Assembly (NCBI GenBank): GCA_013335845.1
Contig: JAAXUU010000003.1
Location: 1-22,460, forward strand
Direction of reading: 5' to 3'
DNA from: Actinomycetota bacterium
Lineage (GTDB): Bacteria; Actinomycetota; Coriobacteriia; Coriobacteriales; RUG844
DNA: 22,460 bases
In this document: positions 652 to 11,954 of the stretch, one piece after another
Numbering within the stretch: the first letter of the stretch is position 1
How the letters are laid out: each line of letters opens with the position of its first letter
The notes under the pieces: generated by a model
Seen by the model: the letters and a program-made list of their open reading frames with translations, nothing else
What the model was told of the DNA's origin: nothing
Database searches by the model: none
Translations under genes and position numbers: made by a program

Positions 652-2891
<2,240 letters not shown>

Positions 2892-2996
2892 GACTTCGCC
2901 GCGCTATTCGGGCATATAGGAAAATAATGACGATTTCCGTCGAATGCTAGGTGTATCATACATGGATTATGTTCTCGTTCGCATGAAAGGGTGGTT

Positions 2997-4388
2997 ATGA
3001 GCGCAAACACGCATAAGAGGAAGCTCGACAGGCGCAACATCATTCTGCTTGTCGCACTGGCTGTCCTCCTCATCGCAGCAGCTATATGCTTCACGCCGCT
3101 CAAGGATAGGATCACGCAAGGCCTCGATATCCAAGGTGGTCTCTCCGTCATCATGACCGCCGACCACTCCGACGGTAGCGAGGTCACGACCGATGATATG
3201 GAGAAAGCGGTCGCCATCGTAACCAACCGCGTCAACAAACTGGGCGCCTCTGAGGCTACGGTCCAACAGCAGGGTGACACATCCATACTCATACAGATCC
3301 CGGGGGTCGAGAATGCAGAGCAAGCACTTTCGACCATCGGTACCACGGGCGCTCTCGAGTTCGTTGATCTTCGCGATATCACCGATACGGATATGGTGAA
3401 ACGCATCGAGAGCGGCGAAACGGGCATGGGGCTCGAACCGGGAACCTATACGGCGTTTATGACCGGGGACTCGATCCAAAGCGTCACCATCGGGCAGGAG
3501 ACGCAGACAAGTGCCTATTATGCCGTCAATCTCAACCTCGACAGCACCGGCACCGCTTCGTTTGCGACGATCACCACCGACCTGGTCTCCACCAACGGTC
3601 AGATCGCGATCGTGCTCGACGGTGTGGTGAATTCGGCACCTGCGGTCCAGAGTGCCATCACTGATGGGGATGTCGCCATCACGGGAAACTACACATTGGA
3701 CGAGGCGAAATCACTTCAGACGGTTCTTGAAAGCGGTGCGCTTCCCGTCGACCTCTCCTTTTCCGAGTCGCGAGTCGTGGGCCCGACACTCGGTCAGGAC
3801 TCATTGAACGCAGGTCTTATCGCCATGGCCATCGGCTTCATACTTGTCGGCCTGTACCTGCTTGTATTCTATCGTGGCCTCGGCGCGTTGACGGTCTTGA
3901 ACCTCCTCGTGTTCGCGACCCTCTATCTCGGCATTCTGGCTGTACTTTCCTATTTCGGTCTATTCGCTTTGTCGCTTGCGGGTATCGCCGGTATCGTGCT
4001 CACAATCGGTTTGGCGGCCGATTCTTCGATCCTGGTACTGGAAAGATTCAAAGAGGAAATCAGAATGGGCCGGTCGGTCAAAGCCGCATCCATTTCCGGT
4101 GTCAGGCATGCGATAAGAACCTCTATCGATGCGGATATGGTCACACTTGTCTCGGCGTTGGCATTGTTCTTCATTGCAGTCGGTCCCGTGAAAGGGTTCG
4201 GACTTACCTTGGGTCTCGGTATCGTTTGCGACGTCGTCACTATGATCATATTCAAGGCGCCGATAATCCGTCTGCTCGCACCCTCGCAGATCGAGAAGAA
4301 CCCCGGATTCTGGGGCGTGACAACCGATATCGAAGAGGGGTCACATGCTGAGGAAATCGCATTGAAGGGAGGTGCCCGGAATGCCTAG
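2997..4388 (+). CDS. secD: protein translocase subunit SecD
   Basis: SecD, with SecF, is the RND-type membrane partner of SecYEG that uses the proton motive force to pull secreted proteins through late in export. The 463-residue protein has a transmembrane helix at about 14-34, the hallmark GLDIQGG (residues 42-48), a periplasmic-type P1 region to about 265, and five C-terminal helices from about 273 to 425. The helix-4 charged segment reads ADSSILVLERFKEE in place of the more common DANVLIFERIKEE. ATG at 2997 is preferred over GTG at 2991 because GAAAGGGTGG precedes it at good spacing. A possible -10 element (TATCAT, 2954-2959) lies upstream without a convincing -35. The gene is shorter than many actinobacterial SecD proteins, which carry long insertions in P1. 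Confidence 0.94.
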   Translation: MSANTHKRKLDRRNIILLVALAVLLIAAAICFTPLKDRITQGLDIQGGLSVIMTADHSDGSEVTTDDMEKAVAIVTNRVNKLGASEATVQQQGDTSILIQIPGVENAEQALSTIGTTGALEFVDLRDITDTDMVKRIESGETGMGLEPGTYTAFMTGDSIQSVTIGQETQTSAYYAVNLNLDSTGTASFATITTDLVSTNGQIAIVLDGVVNSAPAVQSAITDGDVAITGNYTLDEAKSLQTVLESGALPVDLSFSESRVVGPTLGQDSLNAGLIAMAIGFILVGLYLLVFYRGLGALTVLNLLVFATLYLGILAVLSYFGLFALSLAGIAGIVLTIGLAADSSILVLERFKEEIRMGRSVKAASISGVRHAIRTSIDADMVTLVSALALFFIAVGPVKGFGLTLGLGIVCDVVTMIIFKAPIIRLLAPSQIEKNPGFWGVTTDIEEGSHAEEIALKGGARNA

Positions 4389-5352
4389 ACTGTCCAGAAA
4401 CGAAATCAACTTCTTGGGTAACCGCAACATCATGTTCATCATCTCCGGGATCCTGATCGTTCTATCGCTTGCTGCAATCGGGATCCGCGGACTCAACTTC
4501 GGAATAGAATTCGAGGGCGGTTCGTCTGTGGATTTCAATGATGCAGCCGGCATCAGCATCCAAGATATGCGCACGGCATTCGAAGATGCGGGCGAGAACG
4601 AGGCTGTAATCCAGACGACGAACTCGAACGGTGTCGAAGGTTTTCTGATCCGCACCACAGAGGTCAACCCGGATGCGGCAGCTGCTCTTGCTCAAACCGT
4701 GGCTGACGAACTGGGACTATCAGCGGATTCGTTCCAAGTCACTACTATCGGCCCTGACTGGGGCGCCGATATCACCCGTAGTTCCCTTATCGCGTTCCTT
4801 GTCTCTATTATCGTCATCATCATCTACATCGCCATCCGTTTCGAATTCAAGATGGGTGTCACGGCGATTGCCTCGCTCTTCCATGACGTCGTCATCGTCG
4901 TAGGTATCTACGCGCTCGTAGGGCGCGAGATAACACCGAACGTCATCGCGGCCCTGCTCACGATCTTGGGATATTCCCTCTATGATACGATCGTCGTCTT
5001 TCATAGAATCGGCGACAATGCGGAGGAGGCAAAGCCCAAGTGCTCGCTCATGAAACTGGCGAATCATTCCATCAACCAGGTTTTCGTCCGTACCATCAAC
5101 ACGACGCTCGTTTCGCTCATCCCGGTTCTGGCAATGCTCTTTTTCGGTGGCGAGACTCTCAAAGACTTCGCGTTCGCCATGGCCATAGGTCTCGTGTGTG
5201 GGTCCTATTCGTCGATTTCCATCGCCGCTCCGTTCTATACGATGTGGAAGTCGCGTGAACCGAAGTACGCGAAACTCGCTAAGAAATATCCCGATGACCT
5301 GTTACCTAAGCGAAAGTTGAAGAATGCCGAAGAGGGTACGACCGAGGTCTAA
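4381..5352 (+). CDS. secF: protein translocase subunit SecF
   Basis: SecF is the second half of the SecDF export motor. The 323-residue protein has a first membrane helix at about 17-35, the signature GIEFEGGSSVDF (residues 41-52), a short extracytoplasmic domain, and a C-terminal five-helix block. That block contains GREITPNVIAALLTILGYS and DTIVVFHRIGDN, the family's functional motif in helices 4-5. The start is ATG at 4381, behind GAAGGGAGGT at 4364-4373 with seven bases spacing. It lies inside the secD coding region, with an eight-base overlap, so translation is coupled and the subunits are made in equal amounts. GTG at 4372 is in frame but sits on the ribosome binding site and is rejected as the start. 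The tail is basic and cytoplasmic. Confidence 0.95.
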   Translation: MPRLSRNEINFLGNRNIMFIISGILIVLSLAAIGIRGLNFGIEFEGGSSVDFNDAAGISIQDMRTAFEDAGENEAVIQTTNSNGVEGFLIRTTEVNPDAAAALAQTVADELGLSADSFQVTTIGPDWGADITRSSLIAFLVSIIVIIIYIAIRFEFKMGVTAIASLFHDVVIVVGIYALVGREITPNVIAALLTILGYSLYDTIVVFHRIGDNAEEAKPKCSLMKLANHSINQVFVRTINTTLVSLIPVLAMLFFGGETLKDFAFAMAIGLVCGSYSSISIAAPFYTMWKSREPKYAKLAKKYPDDLLPKRKLKNAEEGTTEV

Positions 5353-5393: not shown

Positions 5394-8300
5394 ATGCTTG
5401 AGTCCAAACAAAATAGCTATGCACTTCCGGAAGTCGATTCGGAGTGTGTCCACATGCTGGAGCGTAAACTCGGTCTTTCGCGCATTACGGCGCACTTACT
5501 CGTATCGCGCGGAATCGATACACTTGACGCTGCCCGTGATTTTTTGGAACCGTGCCTGGAGCGTGATTGGCACGACCCTCTCAGCATTCCGGGTATGGTC
5601 GAAGCATCCGATGAAATCGAATGCACTCTACGCGCCAAGGGCAGGGTCGTCATCTTCGGCGATTTCGATGTCGATGGGATCACCTCGACGGCCGTGTTGA
5701 CGCGCGGCTTGCGTGAACTCGGGGCGACCGTTGTTCCTTTGATACCCCACCGCCTCGAAGAGGGCTATGGTTTGTCCGAGGCGGCCTTGCAGCGTATTTT
5801 CGATCAAAGCCCCGACCTTGTCGTGACTGTGGACAACGGCGTATCCTCGGTGGTGGAAGTCGGGATAATGCGAGCGCGCGGTTTGCGCGTCGTCATCACC
5901 GACCACCACGAACCCGGCGATCTCGTCCCGGTCGGTGTGCCGGTGGTCGATCCGAAGCTCGATAAAAAGTGTCCTTCCCGGGAACTTGCGGGGGTTGGCG
6001 TTGCGCTCAAATTGGTCCAAGAGCTCGGTCGACGTCTCGGAAAGCCCGATCTATGGCGTGATTTCACCGATCTTGCCGCTCTGGGCACTGTGGCAGATCA
6101 GATGCTTCTCGTGGGTGAGAACCGTGCCTTGGTCGCCGATGGCATAGCGCGAATGAACTCGAACCCCTGTCCTGCGATCGCAGCCTTCATCGCGACCTCG
6201 CACCGAGGTGGACCTCTTAGCTCCGATGGGCTTTCCTATTCTTTGATACCCCGGCTGAATTCAGCCGGACGCATGGGTGACGCCGCACGGGCGCTCGAGC
6301 TTCTGCTTTCCGATGACTTCGATAAGGCGCTGGGTCACATGGCGCAGCTAGAAGAGATAAATGCCGCGCGTCGCCAAGCAGAGTTGGAGTTCACCGAGCT
6401 GGCGCTATGCGCGATCAAGGAGTCCTATCGCGGAGAAAAGGCGATCGTACTCGGTGGAGAGAACTGGCATGAGGGAATCAAAGGTATCGTTGCGTCCCGC
6501 ATAGCGAATCGATTCGGGGCCCCAACCATCCTATTCAGTATCATCGGCGATCTCGCTCACGGTTCGGGGCGAAGTGTCGGTAGCGTCAATCTCTATAAGG
6601 CAGTGGAACGATGCGCGGACCTCTTCGTCCGCTTCGGTGGCCATGAGGCTGCCGTCGGCATCACGTTGCGCTCCGAGCATCTGCCTGAATTCCGTGCACG
6701 CTTCTGTGCTCTCATGAACGAGCTCCCTTCCGAGCAGTTCATTCCCGCTGCGAAAGTGGATATGGAAGTGACGCTGGGGGAAATCACCCTCCCTGTTCTC
6801 GAAGAATTGGAATGTCTTGCACCCTTCGGGCAAGGCAACCACGTGCCGTGTTTCATTGCGCGGTCCGTTCTGATGACCAATTCGTCCAAGCTCGGTAATC
6901 CACCCGCCCATCTTTCCTGTTTCGCCACGGATGGCCTCGCATCCGTTAGGGGAATATATTTCAATCCTCCCGATCTCGACGAACTCGCTGCGTGCCAAAG
7001 CGTGGTGGATATGGTCTTCCTCGCAGAGAAAAACGAATTCCGAGGCAAAAGTACACCGCAGCTCATGCTTAAGGACATTCGTATCTGCGCTAGGGCGGAG
7101 GGGGAGAATGAGGACGATTTCGTATACGACGAAGTCGTCGAGGATCTTTTCTCGCATAGCGATCGATTTTTGGATAAAGGAGATTATGCGGGTATCCTCG
7201 ATGCCGACTCCTTTCATACCAAACTCGCCGGTGTCACATTCGACGGTCGTCAACAGGCGTTGTCCAAGATGGGTAACGGAGCTGAGCTCGTTTTACGACG
7301 TGAACCGGAAAACGAGTATGATAGCTGCGCCGTCGCTGTTTTTCATGTCGAGGAGCACATAGGTTATCTCAACACACGGCTCGCGCAAAGACTTGCGCCG
7401 GCAATCGATGCGGGAGTTTCCTATGAGGCTATGCTCACAGAACTGACCGGCGGGGTGGATGATACGAGCTACGGCGCCAATATCATCATACGCAAGGTGC
7501 ACGCCGCAGAAGAAGATATCAAGAAGGCGGCGAGGCTTTCACGGCGAAAAGCGGAGATGCAGGCTCTTGGCGAACCCGAACTGTCCGAGCGTATCCGCGA
7601 GGTACTTATCGGGGAACATTCGTTGCATGATGCCCAGAAAGAGTCCCTGGATTATCTGGCGCAGGGGCATGCTGTTCTTGCCGTTATGGCGACCGGTAGA
7701 GGGAAATCGCTCATTTTCCATATGCATGCAGCGCGTTGCGCCCTCAGGGACAAGAAAGCAAGCGTTTTCATCTATCCCTTGCGCGCCTTGGTCGCCGACC
7801 AGGCGTTCCACCTTCAGGGCACATTCGAAGAACTCGGCTTACAAGCCTGTCTTCTCACGGGCGAGAGCAGCGAGGAGGAACGGACTCGAGTCTTTGCCGG
7901 CCTCGAAGATGGGTCGGTCGATTGTGTCCTTACGACTCCTGAGTTCCTCTCGCTTCATGCTGCGCGTTTCGCGCAGACGGGTCGCATCGGATTTCTCGTT
8001 GTAGACGAAGCACATCATATCGGTATGGCTCGCGCGGGTCATCGTCCCGCCTATGCGGGTCTCGCAGAGGTATGCCATGCGCTGGGCAATCCACCTACGT
8101 TGGCGACGACGGCGACGGCTGACGACGCGACGGCACGCGAGATCGTCAAAGCACTTGGGATCGACAAGGTGGTGCTCGACCCGACGGTGCGGGAGAATCT
8201 TCGTATCGAAGATGCACGATCGGTGCGTGATCGGGATATGCGACTCGCGCATCTCGTCTCATCGGGGGAGAAGTCGGTCGTGTACGTGAACTCCAGGGAA

Positions 8301-9038
8301 CATTCGATACGTCTTGCGCGTATGTTGCGAAAGCGTATCCCCGACCAAGCCAACGGCATCGCGTTCTATAATGCAGGTCTCTCCCGCAAGGATCGTGCCC
8401 ATGTCGAGCAGGCGTTCCGCACAGGTGCGCTTAGGACGATCGTTTCGACAAGCGCTTTCGGCGAAGGGGTGAACATCCCTGACATCCGCCATGTCGTGCT
8501 CTACCACCTGCCCTTCAACGATGTCGAGTTCAATCAGATGGCAGGACGGGCAGGCCGTGACGGGGCTCCCGCTCACATCCACCTTCTGTTCGGGAAGGGC
8601 GATGCTAAGATAAACGAGAAGATATTGTCATCTGCAGCCCCCGCTAGGGGGGACCTTATCACTCTGTATAGATGCTTGCGTGCTTTGCAGGCGGACCTTG
8701 CGGGAGATGACGGTTTCTTCATGCAGACGAACGAGGATATCGCGCAACGTTGTGTACGGATTGATCCCAAATGCGCGCTTACCGACCAGGGCGTTTCCTG
8801 TGGCATCTCGATATTCAAAGAGCTTTCTTTACTCGAGACAAGAGGACAAGGGAGCGCACGCCGGATCAAACTCCTCGAAGGTTCGCAGAAAGTGGAGCTG
8901 AGCACGAGCGTGCGGTACCTCGAGGGCTGTGATGAGTTGGAGCAATTCGAGGGGTTTCGCGATTGGGTATTCGAAGAAAGTTCAGACATGCTCCTTATGC
9001 ACTTCAATAGACCGATCATTCCCTATACAATAGGATAA
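5394..9038 (+). CDS. recJ: RecJ-type ssDNA exonuclease fused to HIRAN and RecQ-like helicase domains
   Basis: A 1214-residue single protein joins a 5'-3' single-strand nuclease to a DNA helicase, roughly twice the length of ordinary RecJ. Residues 80-240 are the DHH phosphoesterase core: GDFDVDG (D90, D92, D94), D147 in TVDNG, TDHH (170-172) and D235. Residues about 340-435 are DHHA1, with GSGRS and FGGHEAAVG. About 450-565 is the RecJ OB domain. About 610-690 is a HIRAN domain (GVTFDGRQ, REPENEYDSCAVAVF, IGYLNTRLAQRLAP). From about 735 comes an SF2 helicase: Walker A ATGRGKS (766-772), DEAH (871-874), ATTAT (904-908), and motif VI QMAGRAGRDG (1048-1057). The zinc-binding cysteine cluster of classical RecQ is not evident. 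The reading frame is continuous with no sign of a frameshift joining two genes. Likely role: unwinding and resecting DNA ends in recombination repair. The ribosome binding site is weak (GTAGGCAG). Confidence 0.93.
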   Translation: MLESKQNSYALPEVDSECVHMLERKLGLSRITAHLLVSRGIDTLDAARDFLEPCLERDWHDPLSIPGMVEASDEIECTLRAKGRVVIFGDFDVDGITSTAVLTRGLRELGATVVPLIPHRLEEGYGLSEAALQRIFDQSPDLVVTVDNGVSSVVEVGIMRARGLRVVITDHHEPGDLVPVGVPVVDPKLDKKCPSRELAGVGVALKLVQELGRRLGKPDLWRDFTDLAALGTVADQMLLVGENRALVADGIARMNSNPCPAIAAFIATSHRGGPLSSDGLSYSLIPRLNSAGRMGDAARALELLLSDDFDKALGHMAQLEEINAARRQAELEFTELALCAIKESYRGEKAIVLGGENWHEGIKGIVASRIANRFGAPTILFSIIGDLAHGSGRSVGSVNLYKAVERCADLFVRFGGHEAAVGITLRSEHLPEFRARFCALMNELPSEQFIPAAKVDMEVTLGEITLPVLEELECLAPFGQGNHVPCFIARSVLMTNSSKLGNPPAHLSCFATDGLASVRGIYFNPPDLDELAACQSVVDMVFLAEKNEFRGKSTPQLMLKDIRICARAEGENEDDFVYDEVVEDLFSHSDRFLDKGDYAGILDADSFHTKLAGVTFDGRQQALSKMGNGAELVLRREPENEYDSCAVAVFHVEEHIGYLNTRLAQRLAPAIDAGVSYEAMLTELTGGVDDTSYGANIIIRKVHAAEEDIKKAARLSRRKAEMQALGEPELSERIREVLIGEHSLHDAQKESLDYLAQGHAVLAVMATGRGKSLIFHMHAARCALRDKKASVFIYPLRALVADQAFHLQGTFEELGLQACLLTGESSEEERTRVFAGLEDGSVDCVLTTPEFLSLHAARFAQTGRIGFLVVDEAHHIGMARAGHRPAYAGLAEVCHALGNPPTLATTATADDATAREIVKALGIDKVVLDPTVRENLRIEDARSVRDRDMRLAHLVSSGEKSVVYVNSREHSIRLARMLRKRIPDQANGIAFYNAGLSRKDRAHVEQAFRTGALRTIVSTSAFGEGVNIPDIRHVVLYHLPFNDVEFNQMAGRAGRDGAPAHIHLLFGKGDAKINEKILSSAAPARGDLITLYRCLRALQADLAGDDGFFMQTNEDIAQRCVRIDPKCALTDQGVSCGISIFKELSLLETRGQGSARRIKLLEGSQKVELSTSVRYLEGCDELEQFEGFRDWVFEESSDMLLMHFNRPIIPYTIG

Positions 9039-9062: not shown

Positions 9063-11327
9063 ATGGAGGATCCCGTATCCCTCATAAAAGAACCTACAGC
9101 ACATAGTGCCGAGAATTTCGAGAAGGTTTTGACGACTGCATCGACGTATCTGCAAGATACGGATATAAAGAAGCTTGTCGACTCATATGAATTCGCATCC
9201 GGAGCCCACGAGGGGCAGTGCCGGAAAAACGGCGAGCCTTTCATCAACCACCCCGTTGAGACTGCGCTCATCTTGGCCGAACTGCGTATGGATGTCGACA
9301 CGATTATCGCTGCGATCCTGCACGACACCGTCGAGGATTCGTCGGTGACGGTCGAACAGGTCGAAGCGAAGTTCGGCAAGGAAGTCGCCGAGTTGGTGGA
9401 TGGCGTCACGAAGATCACGCGTATCGAAATCGAATCGCTCACAGAGGCGCAGGCGAACACCTTGCGCAAGATGCTCATCGCGATGTCGAAAGATATCCGT
9501 GTCATCGTCATCAAGCTGGCCGATCGCCTTCATAACATGCGCACCCTCATGGCACTACGAGAAGACAGACGCATATTCAAAGCACGCGAAACCATGGAGA
9601 TATATGCTCCGCTAGCTCACCGTCTGGGTATATCCTCGATAAAATGGGAGCTCGAGGACCTTTCATTCTTCTACCTGGAACCGGCGAAATTCCAGCAGGT
9701 TTCCAAAATGGTCGCGGAATCCCGTGCCGCACGCGAGGCGTATCTGGACGAGACCATCATCGCCCTGCGAGGCGAGCTGGAGAAACTCGGCATCAAAGCG
9801 AAGATTTCCGGACGCCCGAAGCACCTCTATTCCATCTATCAGAAGATGTCCCAGAAGGGTAAGGATTTCTCGGAGATCTACGACTTGATCGCCCTACGTA
9901 TCATCGTCGACACGGTCAAGGATTGCTATACTGCGCTCGGCGCTGTGCATACCTTGTGGCATCCCATGCCAGGGCGTTTCAAAGACTACATCGCCATGCC
10001 GAAATTCAATATGTATCAGTCGTTGCACACGACCGTCATCGGAATCGCCGGACGCCCCCTTGAGATTCAGATACGTACGATGGAGATGCATCGTATGAGT
10101 GAATACGGAGTTGCTGCCCATTGGCGCTACAAAGAGGGGGAAGGTGCTCCTAAGCGCAAGGATTTCGACGAGCGCCTTGCCTGGCTCAGACAGATGCTCG
10201 ATTGGCAAAGCGATACGGAAGACCCGAAGGAATTCATCGAAGGCTTGAAGATAGGGCTTTTCGAAACCGAGGTTTTCGTTTTCACGCCGAAGGGGGAGGT
10301 TATCTCACTTCGAAGCGGAGCAACCCCCATCGACTTCGCCTATGCGATCCACACCGAGGTCGGCCATCATTGCGTCGGTGCCAAGGTCAATGGATCGATC
10401 GTTCCCCTCTCGTATGAACTTCAGATGGGAGACCGCGTCGAGATTCTCACCCAGAAGGCTTCGACCCCCTCGCGCGATTGGCTGAATAACGTGCGCACTC
10501 CATCTGCGCGCTCGAAGATACGCACGTACTTCTCGAAGATATCCCGTGGAGATGACCTTCTGCATGGTCGTGACCAATTGGTGCATGAGATGCGCAAGCA
10601 CGGCGTCGGGATGTCGTCTACGACCTCCTTGCGGGCGGTCGAAGACGTTGCGAAGACACTCGGTTATCCGGGCGGCGATGATTTGATGGTCGCCATCGGT
10701 GCAGGGAAGCTTTCGGCGAAGCTCATCTCCAACAAGCTGCTCCGTCTTCTACTCAAAGATTCGGGCCAGGCAGCCGAGAATGTCAATGTGCTCCCGGGAT
10801 TCACGCTGGAGACACCGATGATCGCCCCGAGGAAGCATCGGAACAAAACGAACGATGCGGGTATCGAGGTCAGAGGGATAGACGATGTCCTAGTGCGCCT
10901 CGCACGCTGTTGCAACCCCGTCCCGGGGGACGAGATCACGGGCTTCGTCACGCGTGGGCGCGGCGTCTCAGTCCATCGCAGTAATTGCCCGAACACCGTC
11001 TCTTTGCTGGAGACCCCTGAACGCGTGATAGATGTATCGTGGGCGGGGAAGGGGGCGTCGTCGTTCCAACTGGAGATACTCGTCGAAGCGTTGGATCGTC
11101 TCCGCCTCCTGCAAGATGTCACGATCGCCCTTGCCGATACCGGTGTGAATATCCTAGGGTCTTCTACCCAGACCCACAAAGACGGTCTCGTGGAGATGCG
11201 CTTCTTGCTTGAGATGACGGAAGCCGCACGCATAGAGCAGATTTTACGTGATCTTCGTGCAATCGAAGGCGTTTTCGGCGCGCGCCGTATGGTCGCAGGA
11301 GAATCAGTCAAGAAAAGGAAGAACTGA
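9063..11327 (+). CDS. rel: bifunctional (p)ppGpp synthetase/hydrolase Rel
   Basis: Rel makes and degrades the stringent-response alarmones ppGpp and pppGpp on amino-acid starvation. The 754-residue protein has an intact HD hydrolase site: H63 in INHP, H87-D88 in ILHDTVEDS, and D154 in KLADRLHNMR. The synthetase domain carries GRFKDYIAMPKFNMYQSLHTTV-type residues at about 304-325. The RFKD form (305-308) is that of bifunctional enzymes, unlike the EXDD of synthetase-only RelA. A TGS domain follows at about 400-465, a Cys-containing linker (LARCCNPVPGD and HRSNCPN) at about 617-650, and a C-terminal ACT domain at about 665-745 for ribosome sensing. The start at ATG 9063 is fixed by GGGAGGTGA at 9048-9056. 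The next gene starts directly after its stop. Confidence 0.96.
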   Translation: MEDPVSLIKEPTAHSAENFEKVLTTASTYLQDTDIKKLVDSYEFASGAHEGQCRKNGEPFINHPVETALILAELRMDVDTIIAAILHDTVEDSSVTVEQVEAKFGKEVAELVDGVTKITRIEIESLTEAQANTLRKMLIAMSKDIRVIVIKLADRLHNMRTLMALREDRRIFKARETMEIYAPLAHRLGISSIKWELEDLSFFYLEPAKFQQVSKMVAESRAAREAYLDETIIALRGELEKLGIKAKISGRPKHLYSIYQKMSQKGKDFSEIYDLIALRIIVDTVKDCYTALGAVHTLWHPMPGRFKDYIAMPKFNMYQSLHTTVIGIAGRPLEIQIRTMEMHRMSEYGVAAHWRYKEGEGAPKRKDFDERLAWLRQMLDWQSDTEDPKEFIEGLKIGLFETEVFVFTPKGEVISLRSGATPIDFAYAIHTEVGHHCVGAKVNGSIVPLSYELQMGDRVEILTQKASTPSRDWLNNVRTPSARSKIRTYFSKISRGDDLLHGRDQLVHEMRKHGVGMSSTTSLRAVEDVAKTLGYPGGDDLMVAIGAGKLSAKLISNKLLRLLLKDSGQAAENVNVLPGFTLETPMIAPRKHRNKTNDAGIEVRGIDDVLVRLARCCNPVPGDEITGFVTRGRGVSVHRSNCPNTVSLLETPERVIDVSWAGKGASSFQLEILVEALDRLRLLQDVTIALADTGVNILGSSTQTHKDGLVEMRFLLEMTEAARIEQILRDLRAIEGVFGARRMVAGESVKKRKN

Positions 11328-11954
11328 ATGGCGGCTCAAGTCAAGATAATGAAGCTCGGTCCTATACAAACCAACTGCTACCTTGTATCCGACGAGAAGG
11401 GCTGCATGGTGGTCGACCCGGCAGATAACGCCCCTGCGATTCTTGCGGAGCTCGATGGACGGAAACTGGACCTGATCGTTCTGACGCACCGTCACTGGGA
11501 CCATCTGCAGGGAGCCGCGGATCTTATGGCGGCGAGCGGCGCACCTATCGCCATCGGGGAGTTCGATGCCGACGCAGCCTGTACTCCCGGCGCAACCGGA
11601 GGTCAGTCCTGGGGCGTTTCCACATCGGTACCTCGGGTCGACCGAAGGCTTGAAGATGGCGAGATCGTCGAAGTGGGCGCTATGCGTTTCACCGTTCTGA
11701 ACACGCCCGGCCATACCGTCGGCAGTATCTGCCTGTATGAGCCGACCGAGAAGATACTTCTCTCCGGTGATACGCTCTTCGCAGCAGGGGTGGGTCGTAC
11801 CGATCTCGAGACCGGTAGCAAACACGCTTTGGTCGAATCCATAAAAACCAAACTCGCACCTTTACCTGACGACGTTACCGTTTATCCGGGGCATGAAGCG
11901 ACCAGCACCGTCGGAGCCGAGCGATCATGCAACTCGATGATGAGACGGCCTTAG
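11328..11954 (+). CDS. MBL-fold metallo-hydrolase (glyoxalase II-like)
   Basis: A 208-residue metallo-beta-lactamase-fold hydrolase of the small glyoxalase-II-like group, which typically cleaves thioesters such as acylated low-molecular-weight thiols; the substrate here is unknown. All metal ligands are visible: THRHWDH (H54, H56, D58, H59), H129 in NTPGHT, D148 in LSGDTLF, and H189 in VYPGHE. No signal peptide is seen, so it is cytoplasmic. The ATG follows the rel stop codon with no gap, and AAGGAAG in the rel 3' end supplies the ribosome binding site, so it is cotranscribed with rel. The last residues (RRP-stop) come from the first copy of a 14-bp tandem duplication that also spans the end of the convergent gene. 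Confidence 0.88.
   Translation: MAAQVKIMKLGPIQTNCYLVSDEKGCMVVDPADNAPAILAELDGRKLDLIVLTHRHWDHLQGAADLMAASGAPIAIGEFDADAACTPGATGGQSWGVSTSVPRVDRRLEDGEIVEVGAMRFTVLNTPGHTVGSICLYEPTEKILLSGDTLFAAGVGRTDLETGSKHALVESIKTKLAPLPDDVTVYPGHEATSTVGAERSCNSMMRRP

Follow-up and report, generated by a model that had tools for sequence, protein, structure and literature searches.

RecJ degrades DNA in the 5'-3' direction and RecQ moves 3'-5', and RecJ of the E. coli type ends after its OB domain. A nuclease and a helicase also work together in NurA-HerA and in WRN (exonuclease/helicase), but systems of this kind are made up of separate proteins or use unrelated nucleases. RecJ and RecQ are described as a bacterial resection pair that supplies the nuclease and the helicase for 5'-strand resection (PMC9960219). 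The window analysed here is a 22,460-nucleotide stretch of contig JAAXUU010000003.1 from a member of the Coriobacteriia (assembly GCA_013335845.1), and it contains a gene in which a RecJ nuclease, a HIRAN domain and a RecQ-like helicase are fused in one chain. This gene probably preserves intact an old RecJ-HIRAN-RecQ enzyme, a single polypeptide for ATP-driven 5'-strand resection, the helicase of which would survive as a fossil in the RecJ proteins of Bacillota. In the latter it appears as PF10141, the RecJ C-terminal domain, for which no function is known. What is new here is that RecJ proteins elsewhere carry what appears to be a dead motor; no title found in searches of the open-access literature concerned a RecJ-HIRAN-RecQ fusion or PF10141 as a helicase remnant.

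Architecture of the fusion protein

The open reading frame (ORF) has an ATG start and no internal stop. The gene and its parts, with Pfam scores, are as follows:

5394..9038, forward strand: recJ-HIRAN-recQ fusion gene, 1214 amino acids (aa)
5643..6089, forward strand: DHH domain, aa 84-232 (77.4 bits)
6438..6719, forward strand: DHHA1 domain, aa 349-442 (46.1 bits), with a conserved GGH at 415-417
6756..7076, forward strand: RecJ_OB domain, aa 455-561 (77.6 bits)
7218..7448, forward strand: HIRAN domain, aa 609-685 (45.0 bits, cut-off 24.7)
7632..8135, forward strand: RecA lobe 1 (DEAD), aa 747-914 (79.1 bits)
7689-7709, forward strand: Walker A motif ATGRGKS, aa 766-772
8247..8564, forward strand: RecA lobe 2 (Helicase_C), aa 952-1057 (81.4 bits), homologous to the C-terminal remnant in motorless RecJs
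8577..9035, forward strand: C-terminal domain (ct), aa about 1062-1214, winged-helix-like by weak matches and related to PF10141

All six Pfam domains, in the order DHH-DHHA1-RecJ_OB-HIRAN-DEAD-Helicase_C, score above their gathering cut-offs, HIRAN and helicase included, and the original prediction of a RecJ nuclease, a HIRAN domain and a RecQ-like helicase in one continuous frame is thus borne out. An assembly-made join of two genes is excluded because this architecture is found again in many genomes from several phyla. The protein scores 446.4 bits against the NCBIfam recJ model TIGR00644 (cut-off 396.9), sharing the complete DHH/DHHA1/OB core of that family and adding HIRAN and the helicase in the same chain. 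Against the recQ_fam model TIGR00614 it reaches 183 bits, below the cut-off of 219.8. Its sequence relatives in the PDB are RecJ 8Y30 (query 22-564) and RecQ 4TMU (query 720-1084).

The helicase has the SF2 core of RecQ with RecQ-type motifs, and its best PDB sequence matches are RecQs. DEAHH and GRAGR accompany the Walker A motif, and the predicted set of intact Walker A, DEAH and motif VI is complete. It differs from RecQ, beyond its score below the family cut-off, in three respects. As had been foreseen, the zinc cysteines (C...C..C..C) are absent, whereas 10 free RecQs from the class have them. The aromatic loop reads ARAGHRPAY in place of SQWGHDFRPEY, with RP.Y kept and the W and F absent. 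Finally, the C-terminal domain is another one: a relationship of ct to the RQC domain of RecQ was rejected, since there is no match and comparison with the C-terminus of free RecQs gives a probability of 1.3. The PDB matches of ct are weak and mostly winged-helix regulators, the best regulator reaching E 0.09; sifA, which ranks first (E 0.04), does not belong to them.

Catalytic residues and the HIRAN pocket

Across 83 fusions, 16 of them without HIRAN, the catalytic residues of both RecJ and helicase are at least 95% identical to those of the window protein, and this includes the DHH-domain residues D90/D92/D94, D147 and DHH 170-172. The helicase motifs Walker A, DExH, VI and V are present in 130, 124, 130 and 130 of 131 frames, respectively.

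The HIRAN profile matches HLTF at E 1e-11. HLTF-type proteins have a HIRAN domain and an SF2 motor in common with the fusion, but the window protein has a RecQ-like motor, no RING and an attached nuclease. The HIRAN domain of HLTF is described as binding the 3'-OH of single-stranded DNA (PMC11237066), and in the human protein Y72 and Y93 are reported to border the pocket, while joint mutation of N90 and N91 is reported to abolish DNA binding and fork reversal (PMC4666394). In the profile alignment, with numbering that is this analysis's own, N640 is the counterpart of HLTF N91 and Y642 that of Y93. Asparagine occupies position 640 in 100% of 72 fused rows, which count the window twice (L001, L021), and in 96% of 45 other rows, nominally HIRAN alone, which include the contig-cut L085, L113 and L116. 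At position 642, H, Y or F predominate, and D643 is D in all HIRAN rows. F616 can be set against HLTF Y72 by eye; this match lies outside the HMMER alignment and was not used.

Probable helicase remnants in motorless RecJs

Of the 46 ct domains from intact members, eight match PF10141 at E<=0.1, the best of them at 1.7e-6, and the post-OB regions of helicase-less RecJs were therefore compared with the fusion. In Bacillota, PF10141 matches at E<=1e-3 were detected in 24 of 199 genomes (14 above cut-off), one of the 24 being the intact fusion of G618; the B. subtilis and L. lactis controls are also matched, and the Paenibacillus cellulosilyticus RecJ (L211, 802 aa) scores 71.4 bits. Among long Actinomycetota RecJs, Pfam sees the domain in two of eight, below its cut-off.

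Profile comparison extends much further. The post-OB regions of 12 long Actinomycetota RecJs match lobe 2 + ct of the intact members with a probability of 99.4% (E 5e-21), while lobe 1, HIRAN, RecJ, free RecQ and reversed profiles give at most 0.2%. The post-OB regions of the other 23 Bacillota RecJs with a PF10141 match fall into two sets. For 17 intermediate ones, the match to lobe 2 + ct has E 3.5e-38, and that to lobe 2 alone 9e-23. For six of the Bacilli type, the corresponding probability is 95% (E 3.5e-8), with ct alone at 2.8e-9, and these six match the intermediate set at E 3e-16. The largest control probability for all 23 is 8.7 (lobe 1); lobe 2 of free RecQ, a true relative, gives 76 against the intermediate set. 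For three two-lobed dead motors, the alignment to the complete helicase spans 380 columns (E 1e-22).

RecJ was detected at E<=1e-60 in 188 of the 199 Bacillota genomes, with open frames of 570 to 1272 aa among the matches listed. The 50 RecJ loci read, like all loci read in this study, were chosen and are not random samples: 40 were picked from this survey to span lengths, eight came from PF10141 matches and two are named records (L211, L212). Judged by Walker A and motifs II and VI, four have a live motor (L204, L218, L232, L233), 42 have a motorless C-terminal region of more than 120 aa, and four have no such region. Single sequences of the motorless RecJs match lobe 2 + ct at a probability of at least 70 in 41 of 42 cases (median 97.2; 33 of 34 among the length-picked ones), and reversed, shuffled and RecJ-core controls do so in 0/42 each. 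Some stages of decay are still legible. L215 (1091 aa) scores 321.6 bits against the helicase profile, yet its Walker A reads STAVVDIS and its motif VI KEQCWIAGV, and L214 and L216 have a dead motor together with a faded HIRAN (20.7 and 32.3 bits).

These alignments suggest that the post-OB domain of long RecJs, PF10141 of Bacillota included, is a colinear remnant of RecA lobe 2 + ct, in regions where the motor is dead or deleted, and that the proteins form a graded series from live motor through two-lobed dead motor and one-lobed remnant to no domain. The alternative, that the motorless domain is unrelated and resembles lobe 2 + ct by chance or convergence, with the fusion a separate gain, would account for several results that weigh against a remnant: lobe 2 alone is not significant for the Bacilli-type set (E 0.03), L240 is the single miss of the 42 (probability 10.8), and the window's ct is not among the few intact ct domains that match PF10141. 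Lobe 1 alone of the two-lobed forms is likewise not significant (probability 18). However, chance resemblance is hard to square with a colinear two-part match that controls never reproduce, with lobe 1, HIRAN and RecJ profiles that stay at 8.7 or below, or with faded HIRAN and dead motor combined in the same proteins, and this alternative is very improbable.

Domain IV of Deinococcus RecJ is described as having no defined homologue by HHpred (PMC4663267). Domain IV of Deinococcus/Thermus RecJ was considered as the same remnant and rejected: it gave no match at E<=1, while RecJ 8Y30 was matched at 540-756 (E 1.8e-30).

Phylogeny of the two halves

In the helicase tree, which like the RecJ tree is a quick tree, the 48 fusions fall into a single clade (SH-aLRT 100) that excludes 12 stand-alone helicases; the outgroup includes two long-branch rows, L022 and L023, which are other helicases of the window's own genome. 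Intact and motorless forms are intermixed in the RecJ tree, where starred branches force at least three changes. L207 and L185, from one genome, group with Peptococcaceae fusions (97), L205, L206 and L209 group with Thermincola-type fusions (91), and L059 falls inside families f31/f84 (99). A single clade of the 29 intact rows as against the 17 others is rejected (p-AU 0.001, a nominal value, as the group was named after the first tree). Because there is a single helicase clade and a shared remnant, repeated decay of the motor in other RecJs would be a simpler explanation than repeated gain.

Distribution of the fusion

Class membership of the compared genomes was taken from protein and record names. 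Some part of the window protein was matched in all 296 genomes searched, and 50 class loci, comprising the best matches and ones picked to cover families, were read. RecJ-HIRAN-helicase-ct is found in 34 of these and RecJ-helicase-ct without HIRAN in 14; HIRAN is thus an optional part of the fusion. One further locus, L084, retains a vestige of HIRAN scoring 16 bits, which goes unreported by Pfam. The HIRAN-less state requires six changes on the helicase tree, three of them forced by starred branches; these numbers do not distinguish gain from loss, but loss is favoured by the L084 remnant. The last locus, L064 (G007, 929-4948), encodes RecJ alone (571 aa) with relA directly behind it, in a genus whose G003 has the full fusion, and is a natural example in which the helicase half has been cleanly lost. 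In all 21 class genomes sampled, exactly one RecJ match reaches E<=1e-60. The fusion is the ordinary recJ of Coriobacteriia and not unusual there; its class-wide occurrence, the frequent absence of HIRAN and the domain after the helicase had all been missed in the original prediction. Small free HIRAN proteins (mostly about 110-250 aa) are common in the class (e.g. G024, G042), also where the fusion has no HIRAN.

A general role of the fusion as a stand-in for RecQ does not hold for the class as a whole, since 123 of 197 genomes have a RecQ-family match above cut-off, although a few of these lie in 900-1200 aa frames and could belong to different helicases. In the window's own genome (86% complete), no RecQ-family match was found above cut-off; the fusion itself is the best match and a 433-aa DEAD-box protein the next. 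Replacement of AddAB is not supported either: AddA-model matches at E<=1e-20 are present in 116 of 119 class genomes, none above cut-off. The window's own genome encodes a 1236-aa AddA/RecB-like protein with a UvrD helicase and a PD-(D/E)XK domain (L165, 290-3997), far below the AddA cut-off.

Outside the class, families f31 and f84 elsewhere in Actinomycetota carry RecJ-HIRAN-helicase (L046-L050). Named genomes were scanned with Peptococcaceae-type helicase halves as queries, and the best 80 of 147 loci were taken. These include 32 in which one frame encodes RecJ, HIRAN and helicase (L092, L114 and L118 are truncated by a contig end), one RecJ-helicase without HIRAN (L164), four contig-cut pieces and 43 HIRAN-helicases that lack RecJ (the frame of L153 starts where its contig does, and L129 is broken into two frames). 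The fused loci include Thermincola ferriacetica metagenome-assembled genomes (MAGs), Orenia metallireducens, Anaerospora hongkongensis and Peptococcaceae MAGs, and the unfused ones are mostly from Candidatus Eremiobacterota. The fusion thus occurs in Coriobacteriia, other Actinomycetota and Bacillota, in several at the same locus. In 31 of 31 genomes of the stand-alone kind, taken from the 43 loci, no RecJ match was found at E<=1e-3, which suggests that in Eremiobacterota-type genomes it is the RecJ half that is absent instead of the motor.

Genomic context

The fusion sits in a housekeeping locus, preceded by queA, tgt, secD and secF and followed by relA/spoT, a metallo-beta-lactamase (MBL)-fold hydrolase, an FAA hydrolase (minus strand), hisS and an aspartyl-type tRNA synthetase. 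The nearest neighbours are:

2991..4388, forward strand: secD
4372..5352, forward strand: secF, a conserved neighbour
9063..11327, forward strand: relA/spoT, a conserved neighbour
11328..11954, forward strand: MBL-fold hydrolase, also in L104, L095 and L212

In the four Bacillota fusion loci checked (L104, L143, L102, L095), relA is downstream in all four. On the upstream side, L102 and L095 carry secF, while different genes (ABC1 kinase, VWA protein) are found there in L104 and L143. L104 also has a phosphoribosyltransferase downstream, and both L104 and L095 have an MBL protein there. The recJ-relA-MBL order of the window also occurs in Monoglobus (L212, 2501-6686), where RecJ is about 570 aa and has no C-terminal domain.

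Origin of the fusion

We lean towards the view that the RecJs of Bacillota, of Coriobacteriia-type Actinomycetota and perhaps of Eremiobacterota descend from one gene for a motorised RecJ-HIRAN-RecQ at the secDF-relA locus, with PF10141 a fossil helicase. The present forms would then be products of erosion, in which HIRAN was lost, the motor died, lobe 1 was deleted (PF10141, Bacillus-type), the tail was lost or RecJ itself was lost. Two features of the RecJ tree weigh on the other side: its deep branches are poorly supported, with an outgroup that is not one clade and a Bacilli-type placement that is not settled, and the interleaving of intact and motorless forms could reflect gene transfer.

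It is also possible, at somewhat less than an even chance, that the ancestor was a stand-alone HIRAN-RecQ which joined a neighbouring recJ in a single fusion at the secDF locus, Eremiobacterota having lost recJ or never had it there. Two Eremiobacterota-type loci (L135, L159) have secD-secF directly upstream of a stand-alone HIRAN-RecQ, their kind of genome yields no RecJ match, and the stand-alone helicases lie outside the fused clade. However, loss of the RecJ half from a fusion explains these data equally well, and the stand-alone rows are not resolved as one clade (two changes).

Proposed function

For polarity, coupling, loading and substrate, a model can be inferred. The RecQ-like motor would run 3'-5' on the 3'-ended strand from a DNA end, a gap or a stalled fork, and the displaced 5'-ended strand would be passed to the RecJ site and degraded 5'-3'. 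In one chain, motor and nuclease would each proceed into the duplex, starting from one and the same end, and a 3' tail would remain for RecA. In proteins that retain it, HIRAN may grip the 3'-OH end and load or orient the motor. The self-contained resection machine of the original prediction is plausible to the extent that the polarities of the parts match; HIRAN as a core part of it is not supported, given the 14 class loci that do without the domain.

Parabacteroides distasonis has recJ and a separate recQ adjacent, 9 bases apart (L210, 2432-6082), and nuclease-helicase coupling is therefore supported by an independent route. Other points count against the proposed enzyme. HIRAN is absent in several lineages, so end reading by this domain cannot be essential, and the residue at HLTF N90 (E639 in the window) is not kept. 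The altered aromatic loop and missing zinc domain mean that the polarity of the motor is assumed. Given the AddA/RecB-like protein of the same genome, the fusion need not be the main resection enzyme. The helicase half might also be an add-on to an ordinary RecJ, merely displacing bound proteins or remodelling forks, as the survival of RecJ alone in G007 and the additional RecQ-family matches of many class genomes would allow; this is unlikely, the motor motifs being kept across two phyla.

If the single-polypeptide resection enzyme is real, it would be a one-chain counterpart of the separate RecJ and RecQ with a fixed geometry, so that one enzyme would suffice for studying loading, handover and polarity. 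An origin would also be at hand for the C-terminal domain of Bacillota RecJ, making its fold and role testable, and the family as a whole would show in graded stages how a helicase decays into a domain without motor function.

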